Positions 14,743 to 26,330 are shown, counted from the first letter of the stretch. The stretch: 59,472 nucleotides of DNA from Pseudanabaena biceps PCC 7429 (GCF_000332215.1 NZ_ALWB01000002.1:1-59472); one strand, 5' to 3'. The notes: generated by a model not told the origin, from the sequence alone. A program made the numbers and translations.

Positions 14743-15003
14743 GTGTCATATGCCGCCCAACGCCTCGAACAACCAGAAAGACCAGAACCTGTAGCCAAAA
14801 AAGTCGATCCGCTCATTATTAGAGCTGCTAAACAGATTTATCGATACTACGCGGATTCCTATGCAGCGCAATTGCCCCGTCCGATGGGCATAGCGATCAA
14901 CCGCATAGATATGACTGGAAAACTGATTTACTCCCAACTAATTTTGTTGCCCCAAGAAAGCTTTGTCCCAATGGAGTTAATTGAACTATCTGACTACCAT
15001 TAA
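14743..15003 (+). CDS. unrecognised small protein (cluster gene 1)
   Basis: This 86-residue protein has a GTG start preceded by AAGGGG at a reasonable distance. I do not recognise it. It begins with a Pro/Glu-rich stretch (RLEQPERPEPVAKKVDP), followed by a helix-like segment IIRAAKQIYRYYADSYAAQL and a strand-rich end (GIAINRIDMTGKLIYSQLILLP). It has no signal peptide or membrane segment. It opens a run of five same-strand genes ending in a GH19 hydrolase. Confidence 0.55.
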   Translation: MSYAAQRLEQPERPEPVAKKVDPLIIRAAKQIYRYYADSYAAQLPRPMGIAINRIDMTGKLIYSQLILLPQESFVPMELIELSDYH

Positions 15004-15226
15004 ATTAAAGTTAAAGTTGGTTTAATTAAATTGCTGATAGATTGCATAAATTATGAATAAATTTATGAATAAATTAATTTAGTTGAAATCAATTTATTCA
15101 AAAATCATAAAAATTGATTTATATAAAGTCTTTGATTATGTAGAAGTTTGTGGTTAAGCGGTTAAAATTTGACTTAGCTATCTTGTTCGATCTAAATTTA
15201 TTAGGATTTTACCCTAGGTATCTGTT

Positions 15227-15670
15227 ATGACATACGCAACTTCTTCTACTTCCGTAACTACGACAGTTACTGCGTCGGTGCGTTTTCAAGACAAGCTCAA
15301 AGAAAGCAAGAACTTTGGTGATGCTTTGGTAGAGATATTTTCCGATCTTGTGGAGTTGGAAATCGTAACTTGGGTTGCCCATGAGGGCGATACTACCCAT
15401 AAAGAAGGTAATCGTCTAAAGACCACTATTAACCTGATCGATGGTGATATCGAAAATGAGATTGGGGCTGATTTCTTACAAGGGTCTCCCTATGCGGAGC
15501 TACGGAGCTTTCATGAAACTCAGGTCGCCAAGGGGGCGGAAACAATTGCCAATAATCTCAAAACCCTAGTAGATATTGGTGAGAAAGTGACAGAAATGTT
15601 ACAAGGTAACAAAGATGAGAAGCCTAGCGATATCAATGCAGGTGTAACGCGTTTGCCAAGCTATGCTTAA
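15227..15670 (+). CDS. unrecognised protein (cluster gene 2)
   Basis: The 147-residue protein starts with a Ser/Thr-rich tail (TYATSSTSVTTTVTASV) and then a soluble domain. VRFQDKLKESKNFGDALVEI is followed by LVELEIVTWVAHEGD, LKTTINLIDGDIENEIGADFL and YAELRSFHETQVAKGAETI. I recall similar short proteins in other cyanobacteria, always without a function. The motif VEIFSDLVELEIVTWV resembles VLEEITSLEINTMIV in cluster gene 3, which hints at distant relationship. There is no signal peptide. Confidence 0.6.
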   Translation: MTYATSSTSVTTTVTASVRFQDKLKESKNFGDALVEIFSDLVELEIVTWVAHEGDTTHKEGNRLKTTINLIDGDIENEIGADFLQGSPYAELRSFHETQVAKGAETIANNLKTLVDIGEKVTEMLQGNKDEKPSDINAGVTRLPSYA

Positions 15671-15694
15671 TTGATTGAATCGTTGAATTGTTGA

Positions 15695-15807
15695 CAAGAC
15701 TTGCATTAATCAAGACTTGTATTAATCAAGACTTGCATTAATCAAGAATTACATTAATTAAGACTTGCATTAGTATAGGGCTTGCATTAATCAAGACTTG
15801 TATTGAC
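15695..15807. repeat. 16-bp tandem repeat array, about seven units
   Basis: Units vary around CAAGACTTGCATTAAT: six of 16 bases and one of 17 at 15775-15791, with one to five substitutions in the later units. The array fills most of the gap between cluster genes 2 and 3. There are no spacers, so it is not CRISPR. It could be an iteron-like protein binding array or neutral slippage. Confidence 0.8.
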
Positions 15808-15949
15808 AGTATTAAACAGTATTAAGCAGTATATTAAAATTAAAAAATCATAACTCTTATAGCAATGTAGCAAGCAATGAGTTGCTAGGATTTTGTTTAC
15901 AGCATTTATAGCTTTCAATGAACTTTCGATCTAGGGCTTAGGCAACAGT

Positions 15950-16858
15950 ATGCAATTTGGTAAAAGCAACGCTGAGAAAGACGAGCAGAGGAGTAATGCT
16001 AGGATTGAAAAAGCCTCAAAAAAGCAGGTAGAGGCTTCTTTGTCTATAGATGAGAAAGATGTCCCCAAGGAAGCAGCAGGACAAAGTGCATCGCTCAATA
16101 GCTTTCGAGAAACGATCAAAGATGTTTTAGAAGAGATTACCTCTCTAGAGATCAATACGATGATCGTTGGCAATATTCCCATGTCAAAGTTTGATGTGCA
16201 GGAATTTTATATGGATATTTCCGATAAGATCGCATACAAAACTGAGCAAGGACTGCAAAACGTTAAAGAATCTCTACTCGAACGTAGCGCTCAACTCAAG
16301 CCAAAGGGAGCGTCACTTCCGCAACAAACGTCAACCTCCTTACTACCGAAGGAAGCCGCAGCTATAGAGCAATATAGAGCTGAGTTGACTAGCTATAACC
16401 AAGACTTAGAAACTTACAAATCCGCCGAACAGATTTTTAATGATCGCAAGAATTCCTTAGATCCTCTCGCTAAGGAACAGTTTGAGCGGGAACATGCCTG
16501 CTATTCTGAAATCTCTAGGCAGTTAGCAAAGTTGAAGATTCCTAAAGATGCTAGCGGTAAGATTATTTCCGATGCCCCGATGATTCGTTATTTTCGGAAG
16601 TTATGGGAATTTGAGCAGTCGGTTTTAAATGGCGAACGCATTTTTGCCCAGACTAAGTTTCACCTTGATGGAGATTTGACAAATAAATTTATCGACGATT
16701 TGTTTATGCCGAGCAAAAGCAGAATCGATCCGAAAATGACCCAGCTTGTTTTTGATTTGCATCGTCAAGGTGTTGAGAATGCTCAAAAGCAATGGTCGGG
16801 GCTTATTACAACCTGTGTAAACCTAGTCAAGAGTCTCATGCCGTTTCGCGCTCAATAA
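15950..16858 (+). CDS. unrecognised coiled-coil-rich protein (cluster gene 3)
   Basis: The 302-residue protein is charged and helix-rich. An N-terminal Lys/Glu-rich region (NAEKDEQRSNARIEKASKK) precedes a domain at about 45-110 (SFRETIKDVLEEITSLEINTMIVGNI, read in parts, then FDVQEFYMDISDKI). A probable coiled coil follows around 140-205 (AAAIEQYRAELTSYNQDLE), and then a compact C-terminal part ending VNLVKSLMPFRAQ. No signal peptide or transmembrane segment is seen. It shares the EI..LEI.T.(I/V)V pattern with cluster gene 2. I do not recognise the family. Confidence 0.6.
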   Translation: MQFGKSNAEKDEQRSNARIEKASKKQVEASLSIDEKDVPKEAAGQSASLNSFRETIKDVLEEITSLEINTMIVGNIPMSKFDVQEFYMDISDKIAYKTEQGLQNVKESLLERSAQLKPKGASLPQQTSTSLLPKEAAAIEQYRAELTSYNQDLETYKSAEQIFNDRKNSLDPLAKEQFEREHACYSEISRQLAKLKIPKDASGKIISDAPMIRYFRKLWEFEQSVLNGERIFAQTKFHLDGDLTNKFIDDLFMPSKSRIDPKMTQLVFDLHRQGVENAQKQWSGLITTCVNLVKSLMPFRAQ

Positions 16859-16936
16859 GTTGACAGAGATGCGAACGACTGGCAGAGATACGAATGATTG
16901 TCAAAAATGTAGAAATTTATAGATTGTGGAGTTAAG

Positions 16937-17950
16937 GTGGCTACACCTGAGTGGCTGGCGATTGCCAATGATGAAATTAGTCTAAGGCTTAACCCAAATG
17001 TTGTAGAACAGATCGATCTAGATACTAAGGGGTTGGCTAGTTACAGGCTGCTGGATCGTGCAGAAATTATTTATAAGTTTAAAAGTCAAGAATTATTGCA
17101 AGTATTGGCTTCTAGTGTTGGTATCGCTTCCCTACGCCAAGGGGCGATCGTGATTTGGACTTATTACACGGAGTCAACTGAAACTACATCTGAAACTACA
17201 TCTGAAACTACATCTGAAACCATATCTGAAACCATATCTGCATCTGTTTCCACATCGCCACCGTTATTAACCGAATCGCCCATACTCAGAACATTAATGA
17301 ATATTGATGGGGATCTTTGCCAAAAAATTTGTCAAGATATCCTCTACCATCCTCAAGCCGATCGCATTTTAAAAGCCCATAGTTTTATTGTCAGTCAGAT
17401 TTCTCGCCAATTTTTGACAGCGATCGTGGACTATGTTGAGGAAAAACTACGTCCCTTTACGATCGCAATGATATCTTTTGTCACGACCATTACATGGTGT
17501 GACCCATTGCGAGACATCGGGAAGAGGTTGAGCTGGTCGCCTTTGGTAATTTCACTTTTAACGAATCCTTGGATGGTGGCGATCGCTGCCCCGATTACCG
17601 TCTTGTTGATCTGGTGGATTTTCTCGCGGCTGAATATCGACTTACCGACATTGCCAAAATTTAATCAGAAGTTATTGGCAAACCTGCTTCAGCTTTTAGA
17701 AAGTACAGGTTTTCAATTTATCGCGATCGCGGCGATCATAACCCTATTGTTATGTTGGGTAGCCCTCCTCTTTTTACAGCCCATAAATGGTCGTTTCGAT
17801 AATTTAATTCAGACATTTACATCCTATCTAGAACCGTACTTACCCCTTGCGATTATTAGTTTACGCAAGGGGATTCTCAGTGTATTGGGGCAAATATTTT
17901 TGCGCTATCCCTTCTTTGTCAAATTAATTTTTGGGCGTTTCATACGATGA
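16937..17950 (+). CDS. unrecognised multi-pass membrane protein (cluster gene 4)
   Basis: The 337-residue product starts at GTG. Residues 1-80 are a soluble domain with similarity to nothing I know. Residues about 75-105 are a low-complexity linker made from a 12-bp DNA repeat (TSET units). Hydrophobic segments follow: FTIAMISFVTTITW, MVAIAAPITVLLIWWIF, FIAIAAIITLLLCWVALLFL and possibly PLAIISLRKGILSVLGQIFL. It appears to be an inner or thylakoid membrane protein with a cytoplasmic N-terminus. The downstream GH19 gene follows at once, with a possible TTG start overlapping it by 20 bases. Confidence 0.6.
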   Translation: MATPEWLAIANDEISLRLNPNVVEQIDLDTKGLASYRLLDRAEIIYKFKSQELLQVLASSVGIASLRQGAIVIWTYYTESTETTSETTSETTSETISETISASVSTSPPLLTESPILRTLMNIDGDLCQKICQDILYHPQADRILKAHSFIVSQISRQFLTAIVDYVEEKLRPFTIAMISFVTTITWCDPLRDIGKRLSWSPLVISLLTNPWMVAIAAPITVLLIWWIFSRLNIDLPTLPKFNQKLLANLLQLLESTGFQFIAIAAIITLLLCWVALLFLQPINGRFDNLIQTFTSYLEPYLPLAIISLRKGILSVLGQIFLRYPFFVKLIFGRFIR

Positions 17951-18026
17951 TAGTAAAGAGTTTGCTTCCCAAACTTTTTATGGCAGTTCTTACAGCAAGC
18001 TTTACAGTAAGTTTTACAGCAAGACG

Positions 18027-19277
18027 ATGAAACAAGTTGAGATTTGGCGATCGCAAGCTGCCGCAACTCTTGCCTTTCTAGTTCCTAAAATTGTTGGCAA
18101 TGCTCCTACCGATCGTGATGGACTGGTAGATGATCTTGTGCGTGCGCTCAATAATTTGCCTGCTCGCCCTGATGGTCGTCAGCCCTATGCGGGCATTTTC
18201 CCAGCAGCCGATCTGCAAACGTGGCGCAATCGTGCTGCAACTACGCTTCAAGCTTTGGTTCCCAAAATTCAGAATGTTGAGGGTAGTGTTTATGATGGGG
18301 CGATCGATGATTTAATTCGCTTTATTCGTAAATTGCCCGCACGTCCGACAGGGCGATCGCCCTATTCAGGACTATTTCCCCCTGCCGATCTAGCCACATG
18401 GCGACAACAAGCCTCACAGGCTTTAGTTGCGGCGATCGCGACTATTACAGATCCCAAATATAACGATATCGATGGCAGAATTGATGACCTAATTCGGGTA
18501 ATGAGTAGGTTGCCCTTACGTCCCATTCTCCGTAAGCCCTATGAAGGTCTGTATCAAGCACCAAATCTCGTACAATACCGCAAATTAGCATCCCAGCGGT
18601 TACAGCAATTGATAGCCGATCTCAAGGACGATTTCAATCCCAAAGATGTATTGGTAGATAGTACAATTCGCGCCTTAAATAATTTGCCTGCCCGTGCGGC
18701 TACTCAAGAACCCTATGCTGGTTTATATCCGCCAACTGTAGTTACTCCCAATCTGCTGACCCTAGACCAATTAAAAGCGATCGCGATCTACACTAGCCAA
18801 GATCGACTCAATCAGTTGCTACCCAACCTCAATACAACCATGCAGCGTTATGGCATTACTACCCCATTACGCAAAGCCCATTTCCTATCCCAAACTGCCC
18901 ATGAAAGTGATGGCTTTAGCACTAATGAAGAATATGCATCTGGTGCGGATTACGAAGGACGTAGAGATCTGGGCAATACGAAAGCAGGCGATGGTGTGCG
19001 TTTTAAAGGTCGCGGTTTAATTCAAGTTACGGGAAGATCCAACTATGCAGCCTGCGGTCAAGCTCTCGGAGTGGACTTGATCAATAATCCTCAACGTCTT
19101 GCCGATTTCGATCTCGCTTGTCTCAGTGCTGGTTGGTATTGGGATTCGCGATCGCTCAATGGCTATGCCGATAATGATGATATCCTCCAAATTACGCGCA
19201 TTATCAATGGTGGGCTGAATGGTTTAGATGATCGACAAGACTATCTTGATCGAGCCAAGCAAGTATTTGGAATTTAG
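18027..19277 (+). CDS. GH19 chitinase/endolysin-like hydrolase with four N-terminal repeats
   Basis: The C-terminal domain (about residues 245-416) is glycoside hydrolase family 19: AHFLSQTAHESDGF holds the catalytic Glu, and RFKGRGLIQVTGRSNY and LSAGWYWDSRSLNGYAD follow. GH19 members cleave chitin or peptidoglycan. The first 240 residues are four repeats of about 59 residues, each with WRxxAxxxLxxLVPKI, then DDLIRxxxxLPARP and PYAGLFPPAD. These repeats may bind a partner or glycan. No signal peptide is present, as in phage endolysins. I chose the ATG at 18027; a TTG at 17931 would add 32 Ser/Tyr-rich residues and overlap cluster gene 4. The membrane protein upstream could be its exporter or anchor (inference). 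Confidence 0.8.
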   Translation: MKQVEIWRSQAAATLAFLVPKIVGNAPTDRDGLVDDLVRALNNLPARPDGRQPYAGIFPAADLQTWRNRAATTLQALVPKIQNVEGSVYDGAIDDLIRFIRKLPARPTGRSPYSGLFPPADLATWRQQASQALVAAIATITDPKYNDIDGRIDDLIRVMSRLPLRPILRKPYEGLYQAPNLVQYRKLASQRLQQLIADLKDDFNPKDVLVDSTIRALNNLPARAATQEPYAGLYPPTVVTPNLLTLDQLKAIAIYTSQDRLNQLLPNLNTTMQRYGITTPLRKAHFLSQTAHESDGFSTNEEYASGADYEGRRDLGNTKAGDGVRFKGRGLIQVTGRSNYAACGQALGVDLINNPQRLADFDLACLSAGWYWDSRSLNGYADNDDILQITRIINGGLNGLDDRQDYLDRAKQVFGI

Positions 19278-19328: not shown

Positions 19329-20171
19329 ATGACTCTGCAACCTTTAATCTCTGATTCAGAGATCGCTCCTGAGATTGATTATCCTGACAGTGATGGTAAT
19401 CCTATGGCTGACAATACCGAGCAATATCGCTGGATTGTGATTATTAAGGAAAACCTAGAGATTATGTATGCCGACGATCCTAATGTATTTGTGGCAGGGG
19501 ATTTGCTCTGGTATCCAGTCCGTCGCACTCAAAAACGAGTTGCGCCTGATGTGATGGTGGCTCTAGGTCGTCCTAAAGGTCGAAGGGGATCTTATAAACA
19601 ATGGTTAGAAGATAATATTGCGCCACAGGTAGTTTTTGAGATCCTGTCACCCAGCAATAAAGATCGACGCGGACAAGATTCCCTTGAAGATAAGTTTGAC
19701 TTTTACCAAACCTATGGCGTTCAGGAATATTACATTTATGATCCCGACGATCTCATTTTAGAAGGCTGGCAGAGAGTGGGCGATCGCCTAGTCCAAATTC
19801 CATCAATGCTCAATTGGGGCAGTCCATTATTAGGGATTAAATTTGATTGGGCGATCGGACAGGAATTAATTATCTCGCGTCCCGATGGTCAGAGATTTTT
19901 GTCACCTGTAGAACTAAGTCAGCGTTTACAGCAGTCAGAAATCCAAGTGTGGCAAGAACAGCAACGCACCGCTCAAGAGCGTAGACGAGCTGAAGCCCAC
20001 CAGAAACGAGCCGAGCAAGAAAGCCTACGTGCAGAACAAGAAAGCCTACGTGCAGAACAAGAAAGCCTACGTGCCGAGCAAGAAAGCCTACGCGCCGAGC
20101 AAGAAAGCCTACGTGCAAATCGTCTTGCGGAGCGGTTAAGAGCTTTAGGTATCGATCCAGACGATGTATAA
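19329..20171 (+). CDS. Uma2-family endonuclease-like protein
   Basis: The protein belongs to the Uma2 (DUF820) PD-(D/E)xK group, which is greatly expanded in cyanobacteria. The nuclease-like core shows VAPDVMVALG with the Asp, then VVFEILSPSNKDR with the Glu and the SPS motif, and DFYQTYGVQEYYIYDPDD. The C-terminal third is a coiled coil with five consecutive copies of the heptad RAEQESL, generated by a 21-bp DNA repeat at about 20018-20115. Whether it cleaves DNA in the cell is not established. Its end overlaps the next gene by eight bases. Confidence 0.85.
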   Translation: MTLQPLISDSEIAPEIDYPDSDGNPMADNTEQYRWIVIIKENLEIMYADDPNVFVAGDLLWYPVRRTQKRVAPDVMVALGRPKGRRGSYKQWLEDNIAPQVVFEILSPSNKDRRGQDSLEDKFDFYQTYGVQEYYIYDPDDLILEGWQRVGDRLVQIPSMLNWGSPLLGIKFDWAIGQELIISRPDGQRFLSPVELSQRLQQSEIQVWQEQQRTAQERRRAEAHQKRAEQESLRAEQESLRAEQESLRAEQESLRAEQESLRANRLAERLRALGIDPDDV

Positions 20172-26111: not shown

Positions 26112-26159
26112 AGTTTCTGATAGGTTATTGCTATGCTGTCACTCTACTGATATAGTTCA

Positions 26160-26330
26160 ATACATTGTTTGGTTCTAGTGAGGAGCAGTCACTAGAGGAA
26201 ACGGGGAAAGTTCGGTGTAAATCCGACGCTGTACCGCAACTGTGATGAAAGCTAATTGATCGTTTATTAACAAGCTTTTCGAGTCAGGATGCCCACCAAC
26301 AACTCACGTAAACCTATATCCCATCTGCGA
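26160..26330 (+). ncRNA. cobalamin riboswitch
   Basis: The leader contains the conserved elements of the cobalamin aptamer in order. GAGGAAACGGGGAAAGTTCG is followed by GGTGTAAATCCGACGCTGTACC, CGCAACTGTGATG, and then the B12 box GAGTCAGGATGCCCACC at 26281-26297. The aptamer precedes a transport operon, and a terminator hairpin follows at 26413. The expected logic is repression of the downstream genes when cobalamin is abundant. Boundaries are approximate. Confidence 0.92.

Follow-up and report, generated by a model that had tools for sequence, protein, structure and literature searches.

The C-terminal domain of KaiA is described as a dimerisation and KaiC-binding unit with a four-helix fold that is otherwise known from RsbU (PMC11372060). 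This domain, the YbaB/EbfC proteins (PF02575), the type IV pilus biogenesis protein EbsA (NF045587) and the GH19 endolysins and chitinases (PF00182, phrog_181) are the closest described systems to a block of five genes in Pseudanabaena biceps PCC 7429, at positions 14743 to 19277 of the window, by which we mean the whole 59,472-nucleotide stretch of DNA that was analysed. Three of the genes, genes 2 to 4 (the trio; g2, g3 and g4), encode proteins with a common core. This core is similar to KaiA_C/RsbU_N over 39 columns around IxNxxxxxFxxxxPxxxIxxxHxxxV, and each of the two domains would serve as a small unit for docking or dimerisation. The locus differs in encoding three proteins related to one another, of which one carries membrane segments, in a predicted beta hairpin rather than a helix in the first half of the domain, and in lacking a kaiB/kaiC context. 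The predicted fold of g2 has an order of elements similar to that of YbaB/EbfC, whereas the protein has no sequence-profile match to that family, is acidic and belongs to a multi-gene module with a membrane subunit. EbsA is encoded upstream of the trio in the host's family, but the trio sequences are unrelated to it and no linkage was seen in the loci examined outside that family. Pfam score and catalytic motifs place gene 5 itself within GH19; unlike the described endolysins and chitinases it has four N-terminal repeats of an unrecognised family, and it is a neighbour of the module rather than a part of it. In the literature searched we found no publication on the g2-g3-g4 module, although such a paper may still exist. 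The module is real and apparently undescribed; its novelty is judged from the lack of matches and would be smaller if the kinship with KaiA_C or YbaB proved genuine.

ORF calling in the window places five genes on the plus strand between ebsA and a Uma2-type gene, as the original prediction had it. The claim that genes 1 to 4 are unrecognised also holds, since Pfam, NCBIfam and PHROG scans gave no family above cut-off for any of them; matches to PUF_NOP9, release factor 1, phasin and CYP38 fell below cut-off and were judged to reflect chance or helical composition. The same prediction had treated the five genes as one block, which in our analysis is true of genes 2 to 4 but does not extend to gene 1 or the GH19 gene. 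The block is not one unit: genes 2 to 4 form a conserved module, gene 1 is independent and the hydrolase gene is a lineage-specific neighbour. Gene 1 (14743-15003, plus strand) encodes a small soluble protein of 86 aa without a Pfam or NCBIfam family. Its relatives occur in 57 of the 64 Cyanobacteriia sampled and also at other genomic places, and it is a separate, widespread gene, a neighbour outside the conserved module. Within the genus the syntenic stretch is GT-rnc-livJ-ebsA-g1-g2-g3-g4-GH19-(Uma2)-AAA28-pilin. Genes 2 to 5 are under purifying selection in comparison with the nearest relative (dN/dS of 0.03 for g2, 0.09 for g3, 0.11 for g4 and 0.14 for gene 5). Promoter and terminator scans gave no more matches than in shuffled sequences and do not provide the operon limits. 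The gap between g2 and g3, about 30-40 nt in most congeners, is much longer here and contains a 16-bp tandem repeat of 6.8 copies (15695-15804, plus strand).

Genes 2, 3 and 4 (15227-17950, one strand) constitute a predicted conserved cyanobacterial operon, g2-(g2L)-g3-g4, in which g2L is a second g2 domain with a long tail. A gene-3 profile scan of 84,980 genomes yielded 98 confirmed loci, the best 80 of which were named, and all of these 80 are cyanobacterial by title. The full order is present in 68 of the best 80, as g2-g3-g4 in 32, g2-g2L-g3-g4 in 30 and g2L-g3-g4 in 6, always on one strand, and several loci that depart from the dominant orders sit at contig ends. Conservation of gene order, which the original prediction had put forward as a check, is thus seen far outside the host genus. 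When 146 genomes of the phylum were searched with single sequences, homologues of genes 2, 3 and 4 turned up together in the same genomes. Across 64 class members the presence of the three is strongly correlated (p 2e-9 to 4e-12); g4 occurs in 17 of the 64, and g2 is present in all 17 (Fisher p 4e-12). The sister classes sampled yielded none of the trio genes. The family is patchy, being present in about a third of the class members sampled, so that cyanobacteria as a whole do not depend on it. In the sister genus (L209) the reading frames overlap, by 4 nt between g1 and g2 and by 1 nt between g2 and g3, and g3 and g4 overlap too. In one genome (G169, locus L204) genes 2 to 4 are cleanly missing as a unit, and since the trio is present in the sister genus, loss is the simpler reading. 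Several families (f13; f36, f38, f41 and f44) have g2 or g2L without g3 and g4, which shows that g2 can be kept without them, while at some Nostoc loci g3-g4 stands without a nearby g2. Because of these exceptions, no obligate complex of three parts can be universal. At L263-L267, L271 and L272 a single g2L-type gene is kept with no g3 or g4 beside it, and in one lineage (L139 1774-9888; L268) g2L and g3 are separated by about 8 kb of unrelated genes, one of them PsbQ-like.

By profile comparison, one core of about 60 residues, xTxIxLDGDIxN...H...V, is common to g2, g3 and g4. In all three families a strand closes with LDGDI and is followed by a variable stretch, a conserved H and a long helix. 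In the window, always on the plus strand, it lies at 15413-15589 in gene 2 (RLKTTINLIDGDIENEIG...H; core profile E 4.9e-20), at 16640-16840 in gene 3 (IFAQTKFHLDGDLTNKF...LH; E 1.7e-13) and at 17279-17416 in gene 4 (ILRTLMNIDGDLCQKIC...AH; E 3.2e-14). In hhalign comparisons g3 and g4 reach a probability of 90-96% and scores of 45-51 against shuffled maxima of 15-21, and g2 and g4 reach scores of 26-39 against shuffled maxima of 15-17. The likeness between g2 and g3 is modest and depends on the alignment: one alignment scored no better than shuffles, and the separate blocks scored only just above them. HMMs built with one family left out recover the omitted family with a best E of 1e-5 to 3e-6, while the best unrelated ORF in a set of 2,503 has E 0.06. 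When 242 genomes were searched with the core profile, each congener genome gave three matches, located at the trio, and genomes with g2L usually gave four; other matches were much weaker. The AF2 models of g2 and g3 have a common order of helix, strand, insert (in g3), strand, DGD, strand and long helix.

The three proteins differ in what surrounds the core. Gene 2 (15227-15670, plus strand) encodes a soluble, acidic protein of 147 aa (charge -10), the short form of its family, modelled by AF2 as helix-helix-three strands-long helix (pLDDT 77.5). Gene 3 (15950-16858, plus strand) encodes a soluble, mostly helical protein of 302 aa; its AF2 model, of low confidence (pLDDT 64, pTM 0.39), has a long helical insertion between the first and second strands of the core. 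PDB sequence searches with the g2 and g3 profiles returned nothing convincing, and Foldseek and viral fold searches returned no match with E < 0.001. Gene 4 (16937-17950, plus strand) encodes a protein of 337 aa in which a soluble N-terminal part with the core is followed by a hydrophobic, membrane-spanning part (aa 203-322; 17543-17902, plus strand). Its three hydrophobic segments (aa 203-234, 250-285 and 304-322) agree with the earlier claim that the gene ahead of the hydrolase encodes a membrane protein, and g4 is the probable anchor subunit. A 12-nt repeat at 17178-17240 corresponds to a Ser/Thr/Glu-rich linker immediately before the g4 core. The g2L form is present in many relatives, while the host genome has the short form only, as in Nostocales. 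In the g2L tail D+E make up about 29% and K+R less than 3%, and the motifs EDW and DPFA recur. Proteins of this type reach 1931 aa, with acidic repetitive tails carrying EDW[DGE] and DPFA (L057 1832-7627 and other g2L genes). Electrostatic pairing of the acidic g2L with a basic g4 was considered and dropped, because the presence of g2L makes no difference to the charge of g4 (median 8 with it, 9 without).

Three features, a gene set that is conserved, a core that is repeated and a single membrane subunit, lead us to the best guess, held tentatively, that the products of genes 2 to 4 form a hetero-oligomer anchored in a membrane, with docking between the subunits by way of the common core. In such a complex g2, g3 and g4 would bind one another via the core of about 60 residues, with g3 as the helical middle subunit and g2 as a peripheral one. 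Gene 4 has no signal peptide and has C-terminal membrane segments, which suggests that it would keep the complex attached to the membrane from the cytoplasmic side. Where g2L is present, its acidic tail with EDW/DPFA repeats may act as a multivalent arm for bringing in several partners together. We observe the conserved order, the co-occurrence, the common core, the membrane segments and the joint absence of the trio, and infer the physical complex, its sidedness and the recruiting role of g2L. The trio is a well-defined unknown, a three-gene unit ordered across many cyanobacterial families, with one core in all three proteins; it predicts a complex, names the anchor subunit and occurs in lineages that include laboratory strains, Nostoc and Picosynechococcus.

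The possible kinship of the core offers two other readings. The module might be a signalling complex on a KaiA_C/RsbU_N-like domain, in which the core dimerises and binds a client at the membrane as KaiA binds KaiC. The core and KaiA_C align in hhalign over 39 columns with a probability of 89-90% and a score of 34, above the maxima of 20 for shuffles and of 17 for 44 natural decoy families, but the resemblance spans those columns only, and in comparisons of single families with KaiA_C the likeness is weak, g3 not rising above shuffles. KaiA C-termini are the commonest non-family matches of the core profile in cyanobacterial genomes, KaiA genes accounting for 9-10 of the 14 weaker matches fetched in addition to the domains at L266 (9387-10193) and L270 (4874-5770); these recurring matches are not independent, because KaiA is conserved. 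KaiA chains also stand near the top of the PDB profile-search list, but with E 0.44. They are not among the structural matches listed for the g2 or g3 model, although absence from the list does not exclude them, and neither kaiB nor kaiC was found among the clustered neighbours of the trio. The AF2 model of g2 has a beta hairpin (pLDDT ~90) where KaiA has a helix, and this hairpin, set against the four-helix bundle of KaiA, keeps the kinship at the level of a lead. We regard the signalling reading as unlikely, and as more doubtful still the proposal that the core is a third KaiA_C/RsbU_N branch, found in three subunits of which one is membrane-anchored, in an undescribed cyanobacterial membrane signalling complex. 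The other reading treats g2 as a DNA-binding protein remotely related to YbaB/EbfC, and the module would then tie the nucleoid to a membrane. YbaB structures are the best matches of the g2 model (3f42 Z 5.1, 1pug Z 5.0, 1ybx Z 4.8; 78-82 residues, rmsd 3.6-4.2, with 3.6-3.7 for the two best rows; VIA-align) and 1ybx is its first Foldseek row (E 0.84), but a Z of about 5 is middling and under VIA-align's own caution level. None of 64 g2-family members matches PF02575 at E<=0.01, and with profile probabilities of 2% for g2 and 0.4% for the core we rejected YbaB as a sequence relative of g2. The acidity of g2 and the presence of a normal YbaB encoded elsewhere in the host genome also count against this reading, which seems very unlikely.

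Genomic neighbours bear on three further readings, each of which we weigh against the membrane-anchored hetero-oligomer. In different lineages the neighbours of the trio include CyanoP-maf, petC-petA, psbQ, ftsH and acsF, names that we assigned by reading the sequences, and these might fit a thylakoid or photosystem-assembly module. The neighbours vary, however, and most cyanobacteria are without the module, though all need photosystem assembly. Such a module is improbable on balance, and the photosynthetic (thylakoid) membrane as the site of the complex is a guess from these varying neighbours. The claim that pilus genes flank the block is correct for this locus, where ebsA (NF045587, 162 bits against a cut-off of 33) lies on one side and a pilin (PF16734 plus N_methyl) on the other. 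EbsA also lies upstream of the trio both in the host genus and in a sister genus, which could make the trio a type IV pilus accessory. The link is local, ebsA standing beside the trio only in the host's family: a search for it around the trio in the 80 named loci (best 80 of 98) gave no match, and conserved pilus-gene linkage was not found outside that family in the loci examined. Common neighbours there are maf (20/45) and CyanoP (14/45) in 45 non-Nostocales loci, and ftsH and ackA in Nostocales. A pilus role is very improbable.

As a working idea, the original prediction had the GH19 hydrolase delivered or held back by the gene 4 protein, in a device for penetrating the wall or in a lysis or toxin device. 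Gene 5 (18027-19277, plus strand; 416 aa) most likely starts at ATG 18027, not at TTG 17931, since most relatives show homology only from residues 24-33 of the long TTG form onward, and with this start it lies 76 nt downstream of gene 4. Its GH19 domain is above cut-off (43.1 bits against 25.5), its resemblance to phage endolysins is strong (phrog_181, 1e-62), and the motifs AHESD at aa 291 and YEGR at aa 309 look intact; the glutamates of HE[ST] and YEGR are presumably catalytic. The four repeats that had been noted in the hydrolase are there (about 59 aa each, 33-54% identical; 18039-18740, plus strand), and the N-terminus is not hydrophobic, in line with the claimed lack of a signal peptide. 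A 2597-aa protein has a short, weak match to one such repeat. In 24 of the 26 genomes of the genus the GH19 gene is the next one after gene 4, but livJ, ebsA and AAA28 are equally syntenic there, and because the whole neighbourhood is syntenic this adjacency carries no special weight. The two also come apart: L204 (G169) keeps ebsA-g1-GH19 with genes 2-4 missing, in L205 (G160) the trio and GH19 are on different contigs, and in the sister genus (L209) g1-g2-g3-g4 is followed by acsF where GH19 sits in the host genus. Among 64 class members the trio and GH19 co-occur no more than by chance (g2 against GH19, p=0.43). Most trio genomes outside the genus are without this hydrolase and many have no GH19 match at all; in genomes with both outside the host's family, the GH19 relatives lie far from the trio or on different contigs. 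A linkage of membrane gene and hydrolase like that of a holin/endolysin cassette was not found beyond one lineage. Given these dissociations, the proposed delivery or restraint by the membrane protein is not supported, and the hydrolase device, which we rate as extremely improbable, is already largely refuted. The GH19 gene is instead a lineage-specific neighbour, adjoining the trio only within the genus and not part of the module.

Beyond gene 5 lies the Uma2-type endonuclease gene (19329-20171), which was not detected at that place in some congeners and in which a 21-nt repeat (20016-20117) encodes an ESLRAEQ heptad stretch. Further downstream the window contains a cobalamin riboswitch (RF00174, 54.5 bits; 26153-26314).
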